This document shows, one piece after another, positions 12,835 through 20,084 of a DNA stretch of 33,370 nucleotides; position 1 is the first letter of the stretch; the number at the start of each line of letters is the position of its first letter. The notes under the pieces are model-generated. The model ran no database searches. It was not told the origin of the DNA and was given only the letters and a program-made list of their open reading frames with translations. Source of the DNA: an uncultured Sphingomonas sp. (lineage in GTDB: Bacteria; Pseudomonadota; Alphaproteobacteria; Sphingomonadales; Sphingomonadaceae); assembly GCA_913777325.1 (NCBI GenBank), contig CAJYSA010000040.1:1-33370 (forward strand). Direction: 5' to 3'. Position numbers and translations under genes: made by a program.

Positions 12835-13098
12835 ATGTCGATCGTCCTCGGCTCCCGACTGGATACCGCCGCCGCCGGGCCGTTGCGCCAGTCGCTGATG
12901 AAGCAGATCGATTCGGCACAGCCGATCGCGATCGATGCCAGCGCGGTCGATCAGGTCGGGCTCGCCTGCCTCCAGGTGCTGGCCGCCGGACGGGCGGCGG
13001 CGGTCGCGCACGGCGTGTCGTGGCAGGTCGCCTTTCCCAGCGTGGCGATGATCGAGGCCGGCGAACTCGCCGCCATCGACGTCCTCGTCGACGCCTGA
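12835..13098 (+). CDS. STAS-domain protein, first gene of the che operon
   Basis: 87 residues forming one STAS (anti-anti-sigma-like) domain: a beta strand with GSRLDTAAAGPLRQSL, the strand PIAIDASAV, then the loop and helix DQVGLACLQVLAAGRAAA. In SpoIIAA-type proteins the loop reads D-S-S-G and its serine is phosphorylated. Here it reads D-Q-V-G, so that switch is absent. STAS proteins at the head of che operons are seen in other proteobacteria, where they presumably act as a protein-interaction module; the partner is unknown. AGGAAGG at 12822-12828 gives a good ribosome site for the ATG at 12835. The next gene, cheA, begins 40 bases downstream in the same direction. Confidence 0.85.
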   Translation: MSIVLGSRLDTAAAGPLRQSLMKQIDSAQPIAIDASAVDQVGLACLQVLAAGRAAAVAHGVSWQVAFPSVAMIEAGELAAIDVLVDA

Positions 13099-13138: not shown

Positions 13139-15403
13139 TTGGACCTCGATGCAATCCAGCAAATCTTCTTCCAGGAATGCGAAGAAGGACTGGCAGGGAT
13201 GGAAAGCGCCTTTGCCGCGCTTCGCGCCCAGCAATATGACGGCGAGACCATCAACGGCATCTTCCGTGCGGTCCATTCGATCAAGGGCGGCGCGGGCGCG
13301 TTCGGCCACGAACGGCTCCAGGCCTACACGCATCAGTATGAAACGCTGCTCGATCTGCTCCGCAGCGAGTCGCTGGCGCTGACGCCGGCGCTGGTCGACC
13401 TGATCGTCGCCGCGTTCGACATGCTGGCCGATCACGTCGCCGCCGCGCGCGATGCCGGCGAGGCGCCCGACGACGCCGCGATGCTGGCACGGCTGATCGC
13501 GGCGGCCAGCGGCGAGTCGGCAGAACCCGCTCCTGCCCCCGCCACGGTCGAGGCTCCGGCTGCCGCCTTGATGGTGGAGGACGCGCCGGTCGGCGTGTCC
13601 GACGATTTCGATGACCTGATGGCGATGCTGGACGATGTCGGCGGCGCCACCGGCGACGCCGACGGCGAGGATGCGGCGCCCGCCCCCGCCCCGGGCTGGC
13701 TCGTCACCTTCCGCCCGCCCGCCAACGCGCTCGATCACGGCGGCGAGCCGCTGCTGCTGCTGCGTGAGTTGCAGCGGATGGAGGCGCGCGTGCTGTCGTG
13801 CGACGCGACCGCGCTGCCGCCGCTCGCCGCGCTCGATCCCGATCTGTCCTATCTGGCGTGGCAGATCGCGGTGCCCGGCACCGTCGAGGAAGACGATATC
13901 CGCGCCGTGTTCGAATTCACCGATGGCGCCGCCGTGACCTTGGAGCGCGTGGCCACGCTGCCCCCCGTGGCGATGCCGACGATCGTGGTCGAGCCGGTGG
14001 TGGAGCAATCGTCAGACGCGACGATTTCAGTCATCGCGGAATCGCCGCCGGCGCCGGTCGTGGTCGAGGCGACGCCCACCCCCGCCCCGATCCCCGCACC
14101 GGCGGCTGCCGCCGCCGAGTCCGCTCCCGCACCCGCGCCGGTCCCGTTGGCCGTCGTCCCCGCCGCGCCGCCCGCGCCACGTGCGGCGCCCGCCGCCGCC
14201 ACCGCGGTTCCGCCGCCCACCCCGGTGGCGCAGACGATCCGCGTCGATCTCGACAAGCTCGATCGGCTCGTGAACCTCGTCGGTGAGCTGGTCATCACCC
14301 AGGCGATGCTCGCGCAGCGACTGAGCGAGAACGACATGGCCGGCATCTCGGAGCTGACCGATCTCGATCACCTGACGCGCGAGCTTCAGGAATCGACGAT
14401 GGCGATCCGCGCACAGCCGATGAAGACCGTCTTCAGCCGCGTGCCGCGTATCATCCGCGAGCTGGAAAGCGAGACCGGCAAGCGCGTCCGCCTCGATATC
14501 GAAGGCGAGATGACCGAGGTCGACAAGACCGTGGTGGAGCGCATCGGCGAACCGCTGACCCATCTGATCCGCAACGCGGTCGATCATGGGCTGGAGACGA
14601 CCGAGCAGCGGATCGCCGCCGGCAAGCCCGAAACGGGCGTCGTCACGCTGTCCGCCGCGCATCATTCGGGTCGCATCGTCATCACCGTCGCCGACGACGG
14701 GCGCGGCATCGATCGCACGCGGGTGCGCGCCAAGGCGGTCGAACGCGGGATCATCCTGCCCGACGCGGTGCTCAGCGACGAGGAGGTCGACAATCTGATC
14801 TTCGCGCCGGGCTTCTCCACCGCCGCCACCGTCTCCAACATCTCGGGGCGCGGCGTCGGCATGGACGTGGTGCGCAAGAACGTGCAGGCGCTCGGCGGGC
14901 GCATCGGCATCCATTCGAAGTTCGGCTCGGGGTCCAGCTTCTCGCTCAGCCTCCCGCTGACGCTGGCGGTGGTGGACGGGATGATCGTCACGGTCGGCGA
15001 CCAGACGTTCGTGATCCCGCTCAGCCATATCGTCGAAAGCCTGCGTCCGTCCGATCGCTCGGTCACCGCGATCGGGATCAACGGTTCGGTGCTCGACGTG
15101 CGCGGCTCCTACGTGCCGATCTATCCGGTCGCCGAACAGCTCGGCATCGAAGGCGGCGAGCGCGATCCGGAGAAGGCCGTGCTGATCGTCGTCGAGGGCG
15201 ATCAGGGCCAGGCCGCGCTGCTGGTCGATTCGATCCAGGATCAGCGTCAGGTGGTCGTGAAGAGCCTGGAGGCCAATTACCAGGCGATCGACGGCCTCGC
15301 CGGCGCCACGATCCTGGGCGACGGGCGCGTCGCGCTCATCATCGACGTCGATGCGTTGACCTCGCAGCGCTCGCGCCGCGGGCAGCTGGCCCACGCCGCG
15401 TGA
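13139..15403 (+). CDS. cheA: Chemotaxis histidine kinase CheA
   Basis: 754 residues. The start is TTG at 13139: AGGAG at 13127-13131 lies 7 bases before it, and it gives a natural P1 beginning (MDLDAIQQIFFQECEEGL). P1 (HPt) occupies about 1-110, with the phosphorylated His46 in AVHSIKGGAGAFG. A middle domain at about 180-270 (WLVTFRPPANAL, LLLLRELQRMEA) is the P2-like module common in proteobacterial CheA. A long Ala/Pro linker follows. The P3 dimerisation helices start near 365 (LDKLDRLVNLVGELVITQ), the P4 ATPase has HLIRNAVDHGLE, VADDGRGID and GRGVGMDVV, and a CheW-like P5 completes the C-terminus. CheA autophosphorylates under receptor control and passes phosphate to CheY and CheB. The stop TGA overlaps the GTG of cheR. 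Confidence 0.97.
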   Translation: MDLDAIQQIFFQECEEGLAGMESAFAALRAQQYDGETINGIFRAVHSIKGGAGAFGHERLQAYTHQYETLLDLLRSESLALTPALVDLIVAAFDMLADHVAAARDAGEAPDDAAMLARLIAAASGESAEPAPAPATVEAPAAALMVEDAPVGVSDDFDDLMAMLDDVGGATGDADGEDAAPAPAPGWLVTFRPPANALDHGGEPLLLLRELQRMEARVLSCDATALPPLAALDPDLSYLAWQIAVPGTVEEDDIRAVFEFTDGAAVTLERVATLPPVAMPTIVVEPVVEQSSDATISVIAESPPAPVVVEATPTPAPIPAPAAAAAESAPAPAPVPLAVVPAAPPAPRAAPAAATAVPPPTPVAQTIRVDLDKLDRLVNLVGELVITQAMLAQRLSENDMAGISELTDLDHLTRELQESTMAIRAQPMKTVFSRVPRIIRELESETGKRVRLDIEGEMTEVDKTVVERIGEPLTHLIRNAVDHGLETTEQRIAAGKPETGVVTLSAAHHSGRIVITVADDGRGIDRTRVRAKAVERGIILPDAVLSDEEVDNLIFAPGFSTAATVSNISGRGVGMDVVRKNVQALGGRIGIHSKFGSGSSFSLSLPLTLAVVDGMIVTVGDQTFVIPLSHIVESLRPSDRSVTAIGINGSVLDVRGSYVPIYPVAEQLGIEGGERDPEKAVLIVVEGDQGQAALLVDSIQDQRQVVVKSLEANYQAIDGLAGATILGDGRVALIIDVDALTSQRSRRGQLAHAA

Positions 15404-16251
15404 GCGCCGCCGCCCAGCCGATGGCGACCAGGCGCGAGTTCGACTTCGCGCCCGCCGATCACCAGGCGATCGCCCGCATCGTCTACGACGCGCTCGGCAT
15501 CCTGCTGCCCGACGGCAAGGCGCAGTTGGTCTACGGCCGGGTCGCCCCGCGGGTGCGCGCGTGCGGCGTGAGCAGCGTCGCGGCGTATCTGAAGGTCGTG
15601 GAGCAGGACGAGGATGAGCGCGGGCGCATGCTGGACGCGCTCACCACCAATCACACCAGCTTCTTTCGCGAGGCGCACCACTTCGAGGATTTCGTCGAGC
15701 GGATGTGGCCCACGCTGTCGCAGCGGCTGGCCTCGGGCGGGCGCGTGCGGCTGTGGTCGGCGGCCTGCTCCAGCGGCGAGGAACCCTATACCTGGCTGAT
15801 GGCGGCGCTGGGTTCCGACAAGGGCGCGGCACAGCGGCTGCTCAAGGGCGACTTCCGCCTGCTGGCGACGGACGTCTCGCCCAGCGTGCTGGAGACCGCG
15901 CGCGCCGGGCGCTACGCGGCGGACACGCTGCGCACCGTCCCCGCGAAGCTCCGCGCGACCTGGGTCGACAGCCGGCTGACGGTCGATCCGCTGCTGCGCG
16001 ACGCCATTTCCTTCCGCCCGCTCAACCTGTTGGGCGCCTGGCCGATGAAGGGACGTTTCGACGCGATCTGCTGCCGGAACGTCATGATCTATTTCGACGA
16101 ACCAACGAAGGCCAAGCTGCAGTCGCGGCTGGCCGATCATCTGGAGACCGGGGGGATGCTGTACATCGGACATTCGGAGCGGCTGTCGCCCGATGTGGCG
16201 AAGCGCTTCGACTGCGTGGGGCGCACCGCGTATCTGAAGGTGCGCGCATGA
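15400..16251 (+). CDS. cheR: Chemotaxis protein methyltransferase CheR
   Basis: 283 residues from the GTG at 15400, which overlaps the cheA stop as GTGA. An in-frame ATG at 15421 also exists, but neither has a clear ribosome site, and coupling to cheA favours GTG. CheR methylates receptor glutamates using S-adenosylmethionine. Motifs are the target-proximal TTNHTSFFREAHHFE (about residues 83-97), the SAM loop LWSAACSSGEEPYT, CCRNVMIYFDEPTK and the C-terminal GGMLYIGHSERLS. Full-length for the family. The receptor gene nearby ends in a W-x-x-F tail of the kind CheR's beta-subdomain can dock on. The stop overlaps the cheB start as ATGA. Confidence 0.96.
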   Translation: MSAAAQPMATRREFDFAPADHQAIARIVYDALGILLPDGKAQLVYGRVAPRVRACGVSSVAAYLKVVEQDEDERGRMLDALTTNHTSFFREAHHFEDFVERMWPTLSQRLASGGRVRLWSAACSSGEEPYTWLMAALGSDKGAAQRLLKGDFRLLATDVSPSVLETARAGRYAADTLRTVPAKLRATWVDSRLTVDPLLRDAISFRPLNLLGAWPMKGRFDAICCRNVMIYFDEPTKAKLQSRLADHLETGGMLYIGHSERLSPDVAKRFDCVGRTAYLKVRA

Positions 16252-17273
16252 GCGTCCGTACCCTCGTCGTCGACGATTCGCTGACCATGCAGGCGCTGAT
16301 CCAGCGCACCCTCGCCAGCGATCCGCACATCCACGTGGTCGGCACCGCGTCCAGCGCGGAGGAGGCACGCGCGCGGATCAAGGAGCTCGATCCCGACGTC
16401 GTCACGCTCGATATCGAGATGCCGGGAATGAACGGGCTCGACTTCCTCGAACGGTTGATGCGGCTGCGTCCGACGCCGGTGGTCATGCTCTCGACGCTCA
16501 CGTCCGAAGGAGCCGACGCCAGCATCGCCGCATTGGAACTGGGCGCGTTCGAATGCTTCGATAAGCTGGCACTTCGGCGTCCGGACGAGGCTATTCGGCT
16601 GCCTGCGCTGGTACGGGCCGCATCCGGATCGCGCGGACGCAGCGTCGCGGCGGCACCGCGCGCGCCCGAACCGGCACCCCAGGCGGACTATACGCCGCGC
16701 GACCAGTCGATGATCGCGGTCGGCGCATCGACCGGCGGGGTCGAGGCCTTGATCGAGCTTTTGTCGGGCTTTCCCGCGACTTGCCCGCCTACGGTGATCG
16801 TGCAGCACATGCCGCCCAGCTTCACCGCCAGCTTCGCCGCGCGGCTCGACCGCCTGTGCAAGCCCAGCGTCGAGGAAGCCCGCGCCGGCGCCGTCCTCCG
16901 CCCCGGCAAGGTCTATCTCGCCCCCGGCGGCGATCAGCATCTCGAGATCGCCGGCCCCGCGAACCGCCGCTATTGCCGCCTGCTCGCCGGACCGAAGGCA
17001 AGCGGCCATCAGCCGTCGGTCGACGTGCTTTTCCAATCAGTTGCGCGGGTCGCCGGCGCCGATGCGGTGGGTGCGATCCTCACCGGCATGGGCGCCGACG
17101 GTGCCGAGGGCATGCTCGCGATGCGCCAGGCCGGCTCGGTCACGATCGGCCAGGACGAGGCGTCCAGCGTCGTCTACGGCATGCCCGCGGTCGCGCATCG
17201 CATCGGCGCGGTGGTCCAGCAGATGCCGCTCCGCCGCATCGCCGCCCGCCTGTTGCAGGAGTGTCGCGCATGA
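16248..17273 (+). CDS. cheB: Chemotaxis response regulator protein-glutamate methylesterase CheB
   Basis: 341 residues from the ATG at 16248, overlapping the cheR stop. The receiver domain (1 to about 120) has VVDDS near the start, phospho-acceptor Asp55 in TLDIEMPGMNG and a conserved lysine in CFDKLA. An Ala/Pro linker leads to the methylesterase domain from about 155. All catalytic elements are intact: Ser161 in VGASTGGVEAL, the histidine in VQHMPPSF and the aspartate in GMGADGAEGM. It removes methyl groups from receptors and can deamidate glutamines, activated by CheA phosphorylation. This intact copy contrasts with the second CheB-like protein at 18769. The stop overlaps the cheD start by 4 bases. 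Confidence 0.96.
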   Translation: MSVRTLVVDDSLTMQALIQRTLASDPHIHVVGTASSAEEARARIKELDPDVVTLDIEMPGMNGLDFLERLMRLRPTPVVMLSTLTSEGADASIAALELGAFECFDKLALRRPDEAIRLPALVRAASGSRGRSVAAAPRAPEPAPQADYTPRDQSMIAVGASTGGVEALIELLSGFPATCPPTVIVQHMPPSFTASFAARLDRLCKPSVEEARAGAVLRPGKVYLAPGGDQHLEIAGPANRRYCRLLAGPKASGHQPSVDVLFQSVARVAGADAVGAILTGMGADGAEGMLAMRQAGSVTIGQDEASSVVYGMPAVAHRIGAVVQQMPLRRIAARLLQECRA

Positions 17274-17833
17274 CCGGCCTGGCACTCCGCGACGGCCTGC
17301 GCCGCCTCACGGTCGCGCAGGGCGAAACGCGCGTCAGCGACGAACCGGACGTGGTGCTGACCACCGTCCTGGGTAGCTGCATCGCGGCCTGTTTTTACGA
17401 TCCGGTCGCGAAGGTAGGAGGTATTAACCACTACCTGTTAGCGGAAGGGGGACATGCCTCCGATCCCGCCTCGATGCAGCGCTACGGCGTCTATGCGATG
17501 GAAGTGCTCATCAACGCCATGCTGGCGATGGGTGCGGCGCGGTCGCGGCTCAAGGCGCGTATCTTCGGCGGCGCGACGATGCGCACCGGCTTTCGCGACA
17601 TCGGCGGCGACAATATCGCCTTCGCCCGCCGCTTCCTGCGTGACGAGCGCATCGCACTGGTCGGCGAGGACGTCGGCGGCAATGGCGCGCGCCGGGTCGA
17701 ATTCCGCCCGGCGCTGGGCCTCGCGCGGTGTCGCGTCGTGACCGACCAGTCGATCCCGGCGCCGGTCGTCCGCACCCGCCCCGTCGCACCGCCACCGCCG
17801 CCCGCGTCGCTTGGCGACGTCGAGTTCTTCTGA
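17270..17833 (+). CDS. cheD: Chemoreceptor glutamine deamidase CheD
   Basis: 187 residues from the ATG at 17270 (AGGAG at 17257-17261, 8 bases before). CheD deamidates receptor glutamines and in some bacteria helps a CheY-P phosphatase. The Cys-His-Thr triad is visible: Cys37 in LGSCIAACFYDP, His54 in GGINHYLL and Thr103 in IFGGATM. After the enzymatic domain a Pro-rich stretch (PPPPPASLGDVEFF) ends the protein in two phenylalanines, longer than the minimal fold requires. It lies between cheB and cheY, with a 46-base gap before cheY, where the operon's tight overlaps stop for the first time. Confidence 0.94.
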   Translation: MTGLALRDGLRRLTVAQGETRVSDEPDVVLTTVLGSCIAACFYDPVAKVGGINHYLLAEGGHASDPASMQRYGVYAMEVLINAMLAMGAARSRLKARIFGGATMRTGFRDIGGDNIAFARRFLRDERIALVGEDVGGNGARRVEFRPALGLARCRVVTDQSIPAPVVRTRPVAPPPPPASLGDVEFF

Positions 17834-17879
17834 CCCGCCGCCCCCTCATGACCCGCAATCTTCCCAGGAGCCAGTACCC

Positions 17880-18254
17880 GTGACCAAGACGATCATGACC
17901 GTGGATGACTCGCCCAGCATGCGAATGCTGCTGCGCGCCGCGCTGACCGACCTCGGCTATCACGTCGTCGAGGCCGAGGACGGCGTTCACGCGCTGGAGA
18001 CGCTCGCCAGCTTCGATGAAGAGGATGAGCCGGATCTGCTCATCACCGACATCAACATGCCGCGCATGGACGGTTTCGGGCTGATCGAGAACGTCCGTGC
18101 CGACGGCCGCCGCACGCTGCCGATCCTGGTCCTGACGACCGAAAGCTCCGACGAGAAGAAGCAGCGCGCGCGCCAGGCCGGCGCCACCGGCTGGATCGTC
18201 AAGCCCTTCCACCCCGAAAAGCTCGCCGCCGCGATCCGGCGCGTGCTGCATTGA
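17880..18254 (+). CDS. cheY: Chemotaxis response regulator CheY
   Basis: 124 residues from the GTG at 17880, chosen because AGGAG at 17866-17870 precedes it and it yields a standard receiver (MTKTIMTVDDSPSMRMLL). Earlier in-frame codons would add a proline-rich stub and overlap cheD. The acid pocket is VDDS (residues 8-11), phospho-acceptor is Asp57 in LLITDINMPRMDG, the switch residue is in VLTTESSDEKK, and the lysine is in IVKPFHPEKL. It is a single domain with no output module, as expected for the diffusible messenger from CheA to the motor or another target. No flagellar genes are in the window, so the target cannot be stated. Confidence 0.95.
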   Translation: MTKTIMTVDDSPSMRMLLRAALTDLGYHVVEAEDGVHALETLASFDEEDEPDLLITDINMPRMDGFGLIENVRADGRRTLPILVLTTESSDEKKQRARQAGATGWIVKPFHPEKLAAAIRRVLH

Positions 18255-18274
18255 TGCTACAAGGAGGCTACGCC

Positions 18275-18715
18275 ATGTCCCGTCAGCTCATCACCTTCCA
18301 GCTCGGCGACCAGTACCTGGGCGTCGACATCATGGCGATCCGCGAGATTCGCGCCTGGTCGCCCGCCACCCCGCTGCCCAACGTGCCCAGCCACGTGCGG
18401 GGCGTCGTGAACCTGCGCGGCGTCGTGCTGCCGGTGCTCGATCTGCGCCACCGCCTGGGCTGGGGCATGACCGACCCGACCGCGCGCCACGTCATCATCG
18501 TCGTGCGGATTGGCGAGCAGTTGCAGGGCATTATCGTCGATGCGGTCAACGACATCGTCACCGTGCAGACCGAGGACATGCAGCCGCTGCCCGACATGGG
18601 TGACAGCGCGGCCCAGCAGTTCCTGGATGGGCTGGCGACGATCGACCAGCGGCTGATCCTGGTGCTGGCGCTGGAGCGACTGGTCGAGCGCGCAGCGATG
18701 GCGGACGCCGCCTGA
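18275..18715 (+). CDS. cheW: Chemotaxis coupling protein CheW
   Basis: 146 residues from the ATG at 18275, preceded by AAGGAGG at 18261-18267, the strongest ribosome site in the operon. A longer reading from 18251 would run through that site and overlap cheY. CheW bridges receptors and the P5 domain of CheA. Typical blocks are LITFQLGDQYLGVDIMAIRE at the N-terminus, VRGVVNLRGVVLPVLDLR in the middle and LPDMGDSAAQQFLDGLATI late in the chain. Full-length single domain. A 53-base gap follows before the second CheB-like gene. Confidence 0.96.
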   Translation: MSRQLITFQLGDQYLGVDIMAIREIRAWSPATPLPNVPSHVRGVVNLRGVVLPVLDLRHRLGWGMTDPTARHVIIVVRIGEQLQGIIVDAVNDIVTVQTEDMQPLPDMGDSAAQQFLDGLATIDQRLILVLALERLVERAAMADAA

Positions 18716-18768: not shown

Positions 18769-19773
18769 ATGGCTGGAACGAAGGTATTGGTGGTCGACGA
18801 TTCGCTGACCATGCGCGCGCTGATCTCGGGTGCGCTGGAGCGGATCCCCGGTGTCGAGGTGGTCGGCATGGCCGACGGTGCGGCGGAGGCGCGCGGCCTG
18901 GTCGAATCGACCCGCCCCGACGTGATGACGCTGGACGTCGAGATGCCGGGGATGAGCGGCCTCGACTATCTGGCGGAGATCATGGACAGCCCCCGGCCGA
19001 TGCCGGTCATCATGTTCTCCACCCGGACGCAGGACGGTGCGGCGGAATCGATCGAGGCGCTGCGGCTCGGCGCGATCGATTGCTTCCCCAAACCCCGCGT
19101 CGCCGCCCCGGCCGAACTCGACGCGATCATCGCCAAGCTCGCCAAGCGATTGAAGGCCGCGAAGAAGGCCGACCTGAAGCCCAAGAGCGCACCCAAGGTG
19201 GCCAAGGCGCCGCCGATCGACTGGAACGGTCGCCTGCTGCTGGTCGGCGGCGATGCGTCGAACACGAAGTCGATCTTCGACCTGTTCACGGGTTTCCCCG
19301 CCAATTGCCCGCCGACCGTGGTCGTGCAGCATCTCGGCCCGGGCCTGGTCGAGAGCATGGTCGAAAAGCTCGCGGAACAATGCGCGCCCAAGGTGGTGGT
19401 GGCCGCCGATGGAATGAAGCCCGAGCAGGGCACGATCTATCTCGCCCCGCACGGCGACGCGCATCTGGTGATCGACAGCTGGCCGAACGGCACGTTGCGG
19501 CTGCTGCCCAAGGATCCCGTCGCGGGCGAGCGTCCCTCGATCTCGCTGCTGTTCGCCTCGGCGGCGAAGGCGGCGGCGGGCAATGCGGTCGGCGTGCTGT
19601 TGCTGGACGGAAACGAGGACGGTGCGGGCGGCTTGCGCGCGCTCAACGCGGCGGGCGGCTACGCCTTCGCGCCCGCGGAGAGCGGCGGCTACACGCTGAC
19701 GCGTGGCATGGTGTCGCAGCCGGTTGCCGGTGACGCCCTGATCGCCGGCGTCATGAAGATGTGCTCGAAATGA
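18769..19773 (+). CDS. CheB-like receiver plus degenerate methylesterase domain
   Basis: 334 residues. The receiver (1 to about 120) is intact, with VVDDS, Asp56 in TLDVEMPGMSG and CFPKP. A Lys/Ala/Pro-rich linker (about 124-148) leads to a CheB_methylest-like domain. There the catalytic G-x-S-T-G-G loop is replaced: the sequence reads LLVGGDASNTKSIF, so the serine position is occupied by Asp162, unless a shift makes Ser164 serve, and the double glycine is lost. The other two triad residues remain, His188 in VVVQHLGPG and Asp284 in GNEDGAGG. The PPSF-type segment after the histidine is also changed. The protein is therefore probably not a working methylesterase. It may be a phosphorylation-controlled competitor or scaffold, which is inference. 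The stop overlaps the next gene as ATGA. Confidence 0.88.
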   Translation: MAGTKVLVVDDSLTMRALISGALERIPGVEVVGMADGAAEARGLVESTRPDVMTLDVEMPGMSGLDYLAEIMDSPRPMPVIMFSTRTQDGAAESIEALRLGAIDCFPKPRVAAPAELDAIIAKLAKRLKAAKKADLKPKSAPKVAKAPPIDWNGRLLLVGGDASNTKSIFDLFTGFPANCPPTVVVQHLGPGLVESMVEKLAEQCAPKVVVAADGMKPEQGTIYLAPHGDAHLVIDSWPNGTLRLLPKDPVAGERPSISLLFASAAKAAAGNAVGVLLLDGNEDGAGGLRALNAAGGYAFAPAESGGYTLTRGMVSQPVAGDALIAGVMKMCSK

Positions 19774-20084
19774 GCGCGCTGGCGGGGCCGATCGTGGCGA
19801 CGGGCAGCGTTCCGCGCCCGCTGGCACAGGCGCTCGCCGCCGAGCTGGTGCTCGCGTCGGGCATGCTGGCCGACCTGGCCTATGATCTGGGCAGCGATGG
19901 CGACACGCTGCGCCGTCATATGTCCAGCCTGCAACTGATCGACCGGATCACCCAGATGCAGCTCGCCATCGCCGACCTGCTGCGCGACTCCAAGGGCGAG
20001 GACGATATCGCGCAGGTGACGTTGCAGGATATGGCCGATCGGCTGCGCGCCTTCGTCGCCGGGGGAGACGGCGCGGCACAGTGA
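19770..20084 (+). CDS. Small helical protein with CheZ/CheT-like D-x-x-x-Q motif
   Basis: 104 residues from the ATG at 19770, overlapping the preceding stop by 4 bases. No recognised domain, signal or membrane segment. It reads as a helical hairpin: one helix at about 17-40 and a second at about 45-73, containing SLQLIDRITQMQLAI. Asp58 and Gln62 form D-x-x-x-Q, the motif by which CheZ removes phosphate from CheY (D-L-T-G-Q in E. coli), set in the same amphipathic-helix context. A small CheZ-related protein, CheT, ends the che operon of Sinorhizobium meliloti, a similar position. I infer a CheY-P phosphatase or a relative that binds CheR; a chance motif in an unrelated helical protein is possible. 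A hairpin follows the stop. Confidence 0.82.
   Translation: MSALAGPIVATGSVPRPLAQALAAELVLASGMLADLAYDLGSDGDTLRRHMSSLQLIDRITQMQLAIADLLRDSKGEDDIAQVTLQDMADRLRAFVAGGDGAAQ

Follow-up and report, generated by a model that had tools for sequence, protein, structure and literature searches.

A distant CheT-type protein as candidate receiver phosphatase at the end of a Sphingomonas chemotaxis operon

Little is yet known of how a chemotactic signal is ended in bacteria that have neither CheZ nor CheC, and the question is raised by a chemotaxis operon in the genome of an uncultured Sphingomonas sp. The window is the whole stretch of DNA analysed here, 33,370 nucleotides in length, and in the genome from which it comes no match is found to CheZ at E-values up to 10 or to CheC at E-values up to 1. 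The operon closes with a gene for a small protein, P0001, which an earlier note on this DNA had read as a candidate minimal CheY-P phosphatase on the strength of an Asp followed four residues on by a Gln. We ask what kind of protein P0001 is, and on which phosphorylated receiver it would act.

Gene, operon and predicted structure

By open reading frames (ORFs) and Pfam matches, the operon runs from a gene for a STAS-domain protein through cheA, cheR, cheB1, cheD, cheY, cheW and cheB2 to the P0001 gene (Table 1), whose ATG start and the TGA stop of cheB2 together occupy the four bases ATGA (19770-19773). Downstream, the nearest long ORF encodes a TonB-dependent receptor on the opposite strand, so that P0001 is the operon's last gene. 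Nucleotide differences between P0001 and each of four orthologues are concentrated at the third codon position (against L002, over 88 codons, 8 at the first position, 7 at the second and 32 at the third), indicating a real gene whose protein product is under selection. P0001 reaches no Pfam or NCBIfam family cut-off, its best match being a sub-threshold one to the CheA dimerisation domain.

Table 1. Features of the chemotaxis operon, with positions in the window
Feature	Position	Strand	Basis
STAS-domain protein	12835..13098	+	ORF list and Pfam
cheA; TTG start as listed	13139..15403	+	ORF list and Pfam
cheR	15400..16251	+	ORF list and Pfam
cheB1; methylesterase-site Ser, His and Asp all present	16248..17273	+	Pfam, alignment
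cheD; start uncertain	17261..17833	+	Pfam
cheY, the operon's CheY; start uncertain	17811..18254	+	ORF list and Pfam
cheW	18251..18715	+	ORF list and Pfam
cheB2; receiver and degenerate methylesterase domain (Asp at the catalytic Ser position); 4-base overlap with P0001	18769..19773	+	Pfam
P0001, distant CheT-type protein, candidate response-regulator phosphatase, 104 aa	19770..20084	+	ORF, coding constraint, family, CheT relation
Motif LQxxDxxxQ, codons 54-62 (L54, Q55, D58, Q62); H50 just upstream	19929..19955	+	family alignment

The AlphaFold2 model of P0001 (mean pLDDT 75.6) contains three helices, spanning residues 16-41, 51-73 and 86-98. Confidence is high from residue 31 to residue 70 (pLDDT of 91, 92, 91 and 87 for residues 31-40, 41-50, 51-60 and 61-70) and low for helix 86-98. 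D58 (19941-19943) and Q62 (19953-19955) both lie on the second predicted helix, and the earlier description of a helical protein of 104 residues that ends the operon and carries this pair on one helix is confirmed by ORF and model. A fold search with the model returns generic helical hairpins alone, with CheZ not among the matches listed; because such a hairpin resembles many unrelated bundles, the search is uninformative on CheZ or on mechanism. A sequence search of the PDB with the family profile gives de novo designed bundles and unrelated proteins.

Conservation and spread of the family

The bare motif is not above chance, DxxxQ occurring at least once in 57.5% of 20,000 shuffles of P0001 and three times in P0001 itself (at 58, 78 and 100), while the longer form [LIM]QxxDxxxQ is found in 1.2% of 200,000 shuffles. 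It is conservation in the family that lifts D58 and Q62 above chance. The pair is kept in all 36 proteins of the family alignment, P0001 among them, whereas the second copy (78/82) is kept in just two, and the only invariant columns are L40, H50, Q55, D58 and Q62. A wider set of 54 distinct domains was drawn from non-rhizobial loci at E-values up to 1e-5, domains with at least 35 gaps in 90 positions being dropped; identity to the window protein in this set has a median of 31% and a minimum of 17%. Here Q55 is kept in 54 of 54 and H50 in 50, and conservation by column is highest for Q55 and L40 (100%) and next highest for D58 and Q62 (98.1%, or 53 of 54, each). The earlier note had named a lack of conservation of D58 and Q62 among orthologues as one part of what would refute its proposal, and in this respect the proposal stands. 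The sole deviant, L271, is a PilZ-fused protein encoded on the minus strand that has Glu and Asn at the two positions and, judging by these substitutions, is possibly inactive or of altered chemistry.

The family search that the earlier note had suggested finds members in 80 genomes of the Sphingomonadaceae, the window's own family. Of the 296 genomes examined in the order, 81 are matched by the 36-row profile, these 80 and G089, whose match lies inside what reads as a cytochrome P450-like ORF and was discounted. Across the class, E-values up to 0.01 are reached in 4 of 181 genomes, namely the window's own, G365 and two with weak matches (L073 and L074) that we set aside as frames opposite, by reading, an ABC-transporter ORF and an acetyltransferase-like ORF. 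The G365 match (E 5.6e-11) is to an ORF directly after cheD, which is the place of cheT in rhizobia. The relative L093 likewise sits after cheD. Within the window's family, G322 has the order cheR-cheB-cheY-cheD-member (L276), which suggests that the position after cheB2 seen in the window is derived. Members elsewhere follow cheW, cheY or cheD, or sit outside che operons: among the 54 domains, 34 are near che genes, 15 have none within up to 2.6 kb of searched flank, and 5 form parts of longer ORFs with a PilZ-like pattern. A plasmid search with the L096 protein gave no match.

Relation to CheT, CheZ and other chemotaxis proteins

The earlier note had named CheT of Sinorhizobium meliloti as a precedent, and profile comparison agrees. 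Sinorhizobium CheY2 (1p6q) served as query to collect 80 loci whose titles name, almost without exception, genera of the Rhizobiaceae; as a control, the NCBIfam model NF047973 identifies as CheT, with 205.5 bits, the ORF that follows cheD in Sinorhizobium medicae (L104). These loci were scored with the family profile and with a bridged profile, to which three CheD-adjacent proteins (from G365, G322 and G485) had been added. With either profile CheT is the best-scoring ORF in 80 of 80 loci (4267 ORFs), although the 80 CheTs are close relatives and not 80 independent tests. The top CheT score is 18.0 bits (E 5.3e-4) for the unbridged and 23.6 bits (E 1e-5) for the bridged profile. With the latter, none of the 80 CheTs scores below 11.0 bits, against 10.4 for the best non-CheT ORF; with the unbridged profile the weakest CheT (7.0 bits) falls, across loci, below one non-CheT ORF at 9.2 bits. 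In a trimmed set of 69 distinct CheTs, every one outscores all 1449 decoys made by reversal or shuffling, whichever profile is used, the decoy maximum being 8.7 bits unbridged and 9.7 bits bridged, and the real CheTs ranging over 9.1-19.7 and 12.0-23.2 bits, respectively. In hhalign comparisons the motif of the family aligns in register with that of CheT, weakly for the unbridged profile (P 0.0034, probability 9%) and with a P of 1.7e-4 and a probability of 50% for the bridged one. The pattern xQGxDxxxQ is present in each of the 74 rhizobial CheTs, of the 80 in the set, that were parsed by the extraction pattern.

The likeness extends to architecture. The AlphaFold model of CheT has helices 15-41, 48-76 and 86-104 with D58 and Q62 at the same numbers as in P0001, and both proteins are small, belong to che operons and are modelled with two long helices folded into a hairpin, then a third helix, with xQxxDxxxQ on helix B. 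In contrast to the CheTs of Sinorhizobium and other Rhizobiaceae, P0001 has no C-terminal HGHSQPL stretch, its direct profile match is weak, and the equivalog model NF047973 (cut-off 200 bits) gives no match to it at E-values up to 10; two relatives match this model at E 0.0019 (L034) and 0.059 (L029). Because NF047973 is missed and the gene is placed after cheB2 rather than cheD, P0001 is classed from its sequence as a distant CheT-type protein and not as CheT itself. CheT is reported in a review (PMC12654446) to speed the dephosphorylation of one of two CheYs, and the publication cited for this activity dates from 2024. A CheT-type phosphatase is a known kind of protein, and what is new is a divergent branch with a dead CheB and PilZ-fused cousins; a literature search, which was not exhaustive, found nothing on this branch. 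The CheT-type family is extended in this way from the Rhizobiaceae to the window's family, with named residues to mutate.

The relation to CheZ is of another kind. As in CheZ (PF04344), P0001 carries an Asp and, four residues on, a Gln on a helix; the earlier note's CheZ motif is an analogy alone, and homology was rejected after the Pfam scan, HMM scores and hhalign comparison with 30 alphaproteobacterial CheZs had given nothing. P0001 is about half as long as CheZ (104 against about 200 residues) and is without both the FQDxxGQ block and the invariant GP near the C-terminus that is common to the 30 aligned CheZs. The C-terminal tail of CheZ binds CheY. The CheC and CheX phosphatases do the same kind of job as is proposed for P0001, which has no Pfam match to either at E-values up to 10.

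Nor is CheZ as rare in the class as the earlier note had assumed when it stated that Alphaproteobacteria usually lack it: CheZ exceeds the Pfam cut-off in 68 of 190 genomes class-wide and, among the 296 genomes from the order, in 78, of which 77 belong to other families and one, G088, to the window's own. G089, discounted above, is the sole genome to appear on both the CheZ list and the list of family members. A member is found in 33 of 37 Sphingomonadaceae genomes with a strong match to the CheA P3 domain (E under 1e-11, a threshold chosen after the table had been seen, with some of the members in these genomes outside che operons). The four others are G088, which has CheZ, G322, which has a member on closer look, and G173 (cluster near a contig end) and G295 (no member seen in 18 kb). 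CheZ and CheT-type proteins are distributed in a complementary way, a pattern that follows family lines and may reflect one event.

The argument that a single CheY makes a separate phosphatase necessary is not supported by the whole genome, which has two further CheA loci on other contigs (C120 and C8), each with a CheY-like gene. The locus on C120 (L268) is a cheY-cheA-cheW cluster at the contig end. That on C8 (L278) combines a CheA-type kinase and CheW-, CheY-, CheB- and CheR-like genes with a neighbouring ChpT-type phosphotransferase. A CheA of the latter type is present in 10 of 10 other genomes of the family that were looked at, with an adjoining ChpT-like gene in 7, and the locus is a second chemosensory-like system, found also in genomes that have no strong chemotaxis CheA.

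Proposed function, substrates and PilZ-fused relatives

In the reading that we prefer, with a probability of about 0.68, P0001 is a distant CheT-type protein that would terminate chemotactic signalling by accelerating the dephosphorylation of a receiver domain. The operon's CheY is its most likely substrate, and the CheB2 receiver, encoded in the same operon, is a possible one. The role of D58 and Q62 at such a receiver is proposed by analogy with CheZ and CheT. Helix A (16-41) and helix B (51-73) are predicted to pack as a hairpin, two copies of which probably associate into a four-helix bundle; D58 and Q62 on helix B would be presented to the active site of the receiver, where Q62 would orient the attacking water as the Gln of CheZ does in the active site of CheY. 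P0001 would then be a candidate phosphatase for a bacterial family in which a single sampled genome has CheZ.

The gene that overlaps P0001 bears on the choice of substrate. CheB2 matches the Pfam models of both receiver and methylesterase, and of the Ser, His and Asp that we take to form the methylesterase site, it has an Asp where CheB1 of the same operon, which keeps all three, carries the catalytic Ser. In 21 of 38 family loci examined, a count that includes the window and leaves out the duplicates L011 and L016, the gene directly upstream of the member is CheB-like. Of these 21, 17 have lost the Ser and the other four keep the Ser without the His, a loss counted solely where the Ser remains since the His position is possibly off by one in the alignment for L010 and L020; the Asp is present in all 21. 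The co-translation of a dead methylesterase that retains a receiver with this putative phosphatase suggests that the two function as a pair.

This pairing could be taken further, P0001 acting mainly on the degenerate CheB2 as a phosphate sink or timer that is charged by CheA and discharged by P0001. The translational overlap, the recurrent loss of Ser or His in the upstream CheB with retention of the Asp, the intact site of CheB1 and the receiver match of CheB2 all favour such a role, but members located after cheW, cheY or cheD, or away from che operons altogether, argue that CheB2 is not the family's only substrate. We regard it as unlikely, though with a real share of the probability, and it overlaps with the preferred reading, where CheB2 is an allowed second substrate. 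More doubtful still is a non-catalytic helical adaptor, either a dimer partner resembling CheA P3 or a binder of CheR or CheB2, in which the conserved Q, D and Q would be structural. P0001 is a helical hairpin like CheA P3, and its residues 22-62 match the CheA dimerisation domain PF02895 (E 0.0028, 18.5 bits, below the cut-off of 23), as do 3 of the 36 family members at E-values up to 1; a P3 profile made from the uncleaned set scores L002, L003 and the window protein at 11.0, 10.4 and 7.7 bits; and binding to CheR is reported for CheT (PMC12654446). Against it, hhalign finds no profile-profile relation to 22 P3 sequences (P 0.13-0.16), a set cleaned of mis-extracted rows from 29, so that an origin from CheA P3 was rejected; P3 domains score at most 6.8 bits with the bridged profile, and the presence of polar residues among the most conserved points to a catalytic or binding site and not to packing. 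It is scarcely credible that the motif arose by chance in a small ORF of no importance: the frequency of the bare motif in shuffles would permit it, but the recurrence of the same pair across the distinct domains, the third-position bias and the relation to CheT all speak against it.

The preferred reading, of a CheT-type receiver phosphatase, may apply beyond chemotaxis operons. Among nine longer member proteins, PilZ exceeds the Pfam cut-off in seven (L246, L248, L249, L250, L253, L271 and L277, the last by 0.1 bit alone), falls below it in L270 and is not detected in L251, which has an incomplete N-terminus. The fusions, all from the window's family, have an N-terminal PilZ and a C-terminal CheT-type domain and are not beside che genes, CheY-like ORFs lying about 7 kb from L246 and L248. 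The D and Q are kept in six of the seven PilZ-positive proteins, L271 with its E and N being the exception. From this domain arrangement it is possible that the PilZ-fused members are receiver phosphatases controlled by c-di-GMP, for which the ChpT-associated L278-type locus is a candidate partner system. We tentatively propose, at rather less than even odds, that P0001 belongs to a larger Sphingomonadaceae family of small receiver phosphatases of the CheT type that is put to two uses, beside a catalytically dead CheB in che operons and, elsewhere, fused to PilZ as a response-regulator phosphatase under cyclic di-GMP control. If true, phosphatase activity may be governed by c-di-GMP in the fusions, which would directly link c-di-GMP to a phosphorelay, also in genomes without a strong chemotaxis-type CheA match.

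Stand-alone members are also found away from che genes. In genus g33 (L244, L245 and L035-L040) they have an intact motif and follow what reads as a transketolase- or E1-like gene, with no che genes in the 1.5-2.6 kb searched and, for L244, a CheY-like ORF about 7.5 kb away. Finally, on the minus strand of L094 (G417), a frame of 195 residues near cheD contains LQSADRLTQ and is perhaps another small phosphatase-like protein.
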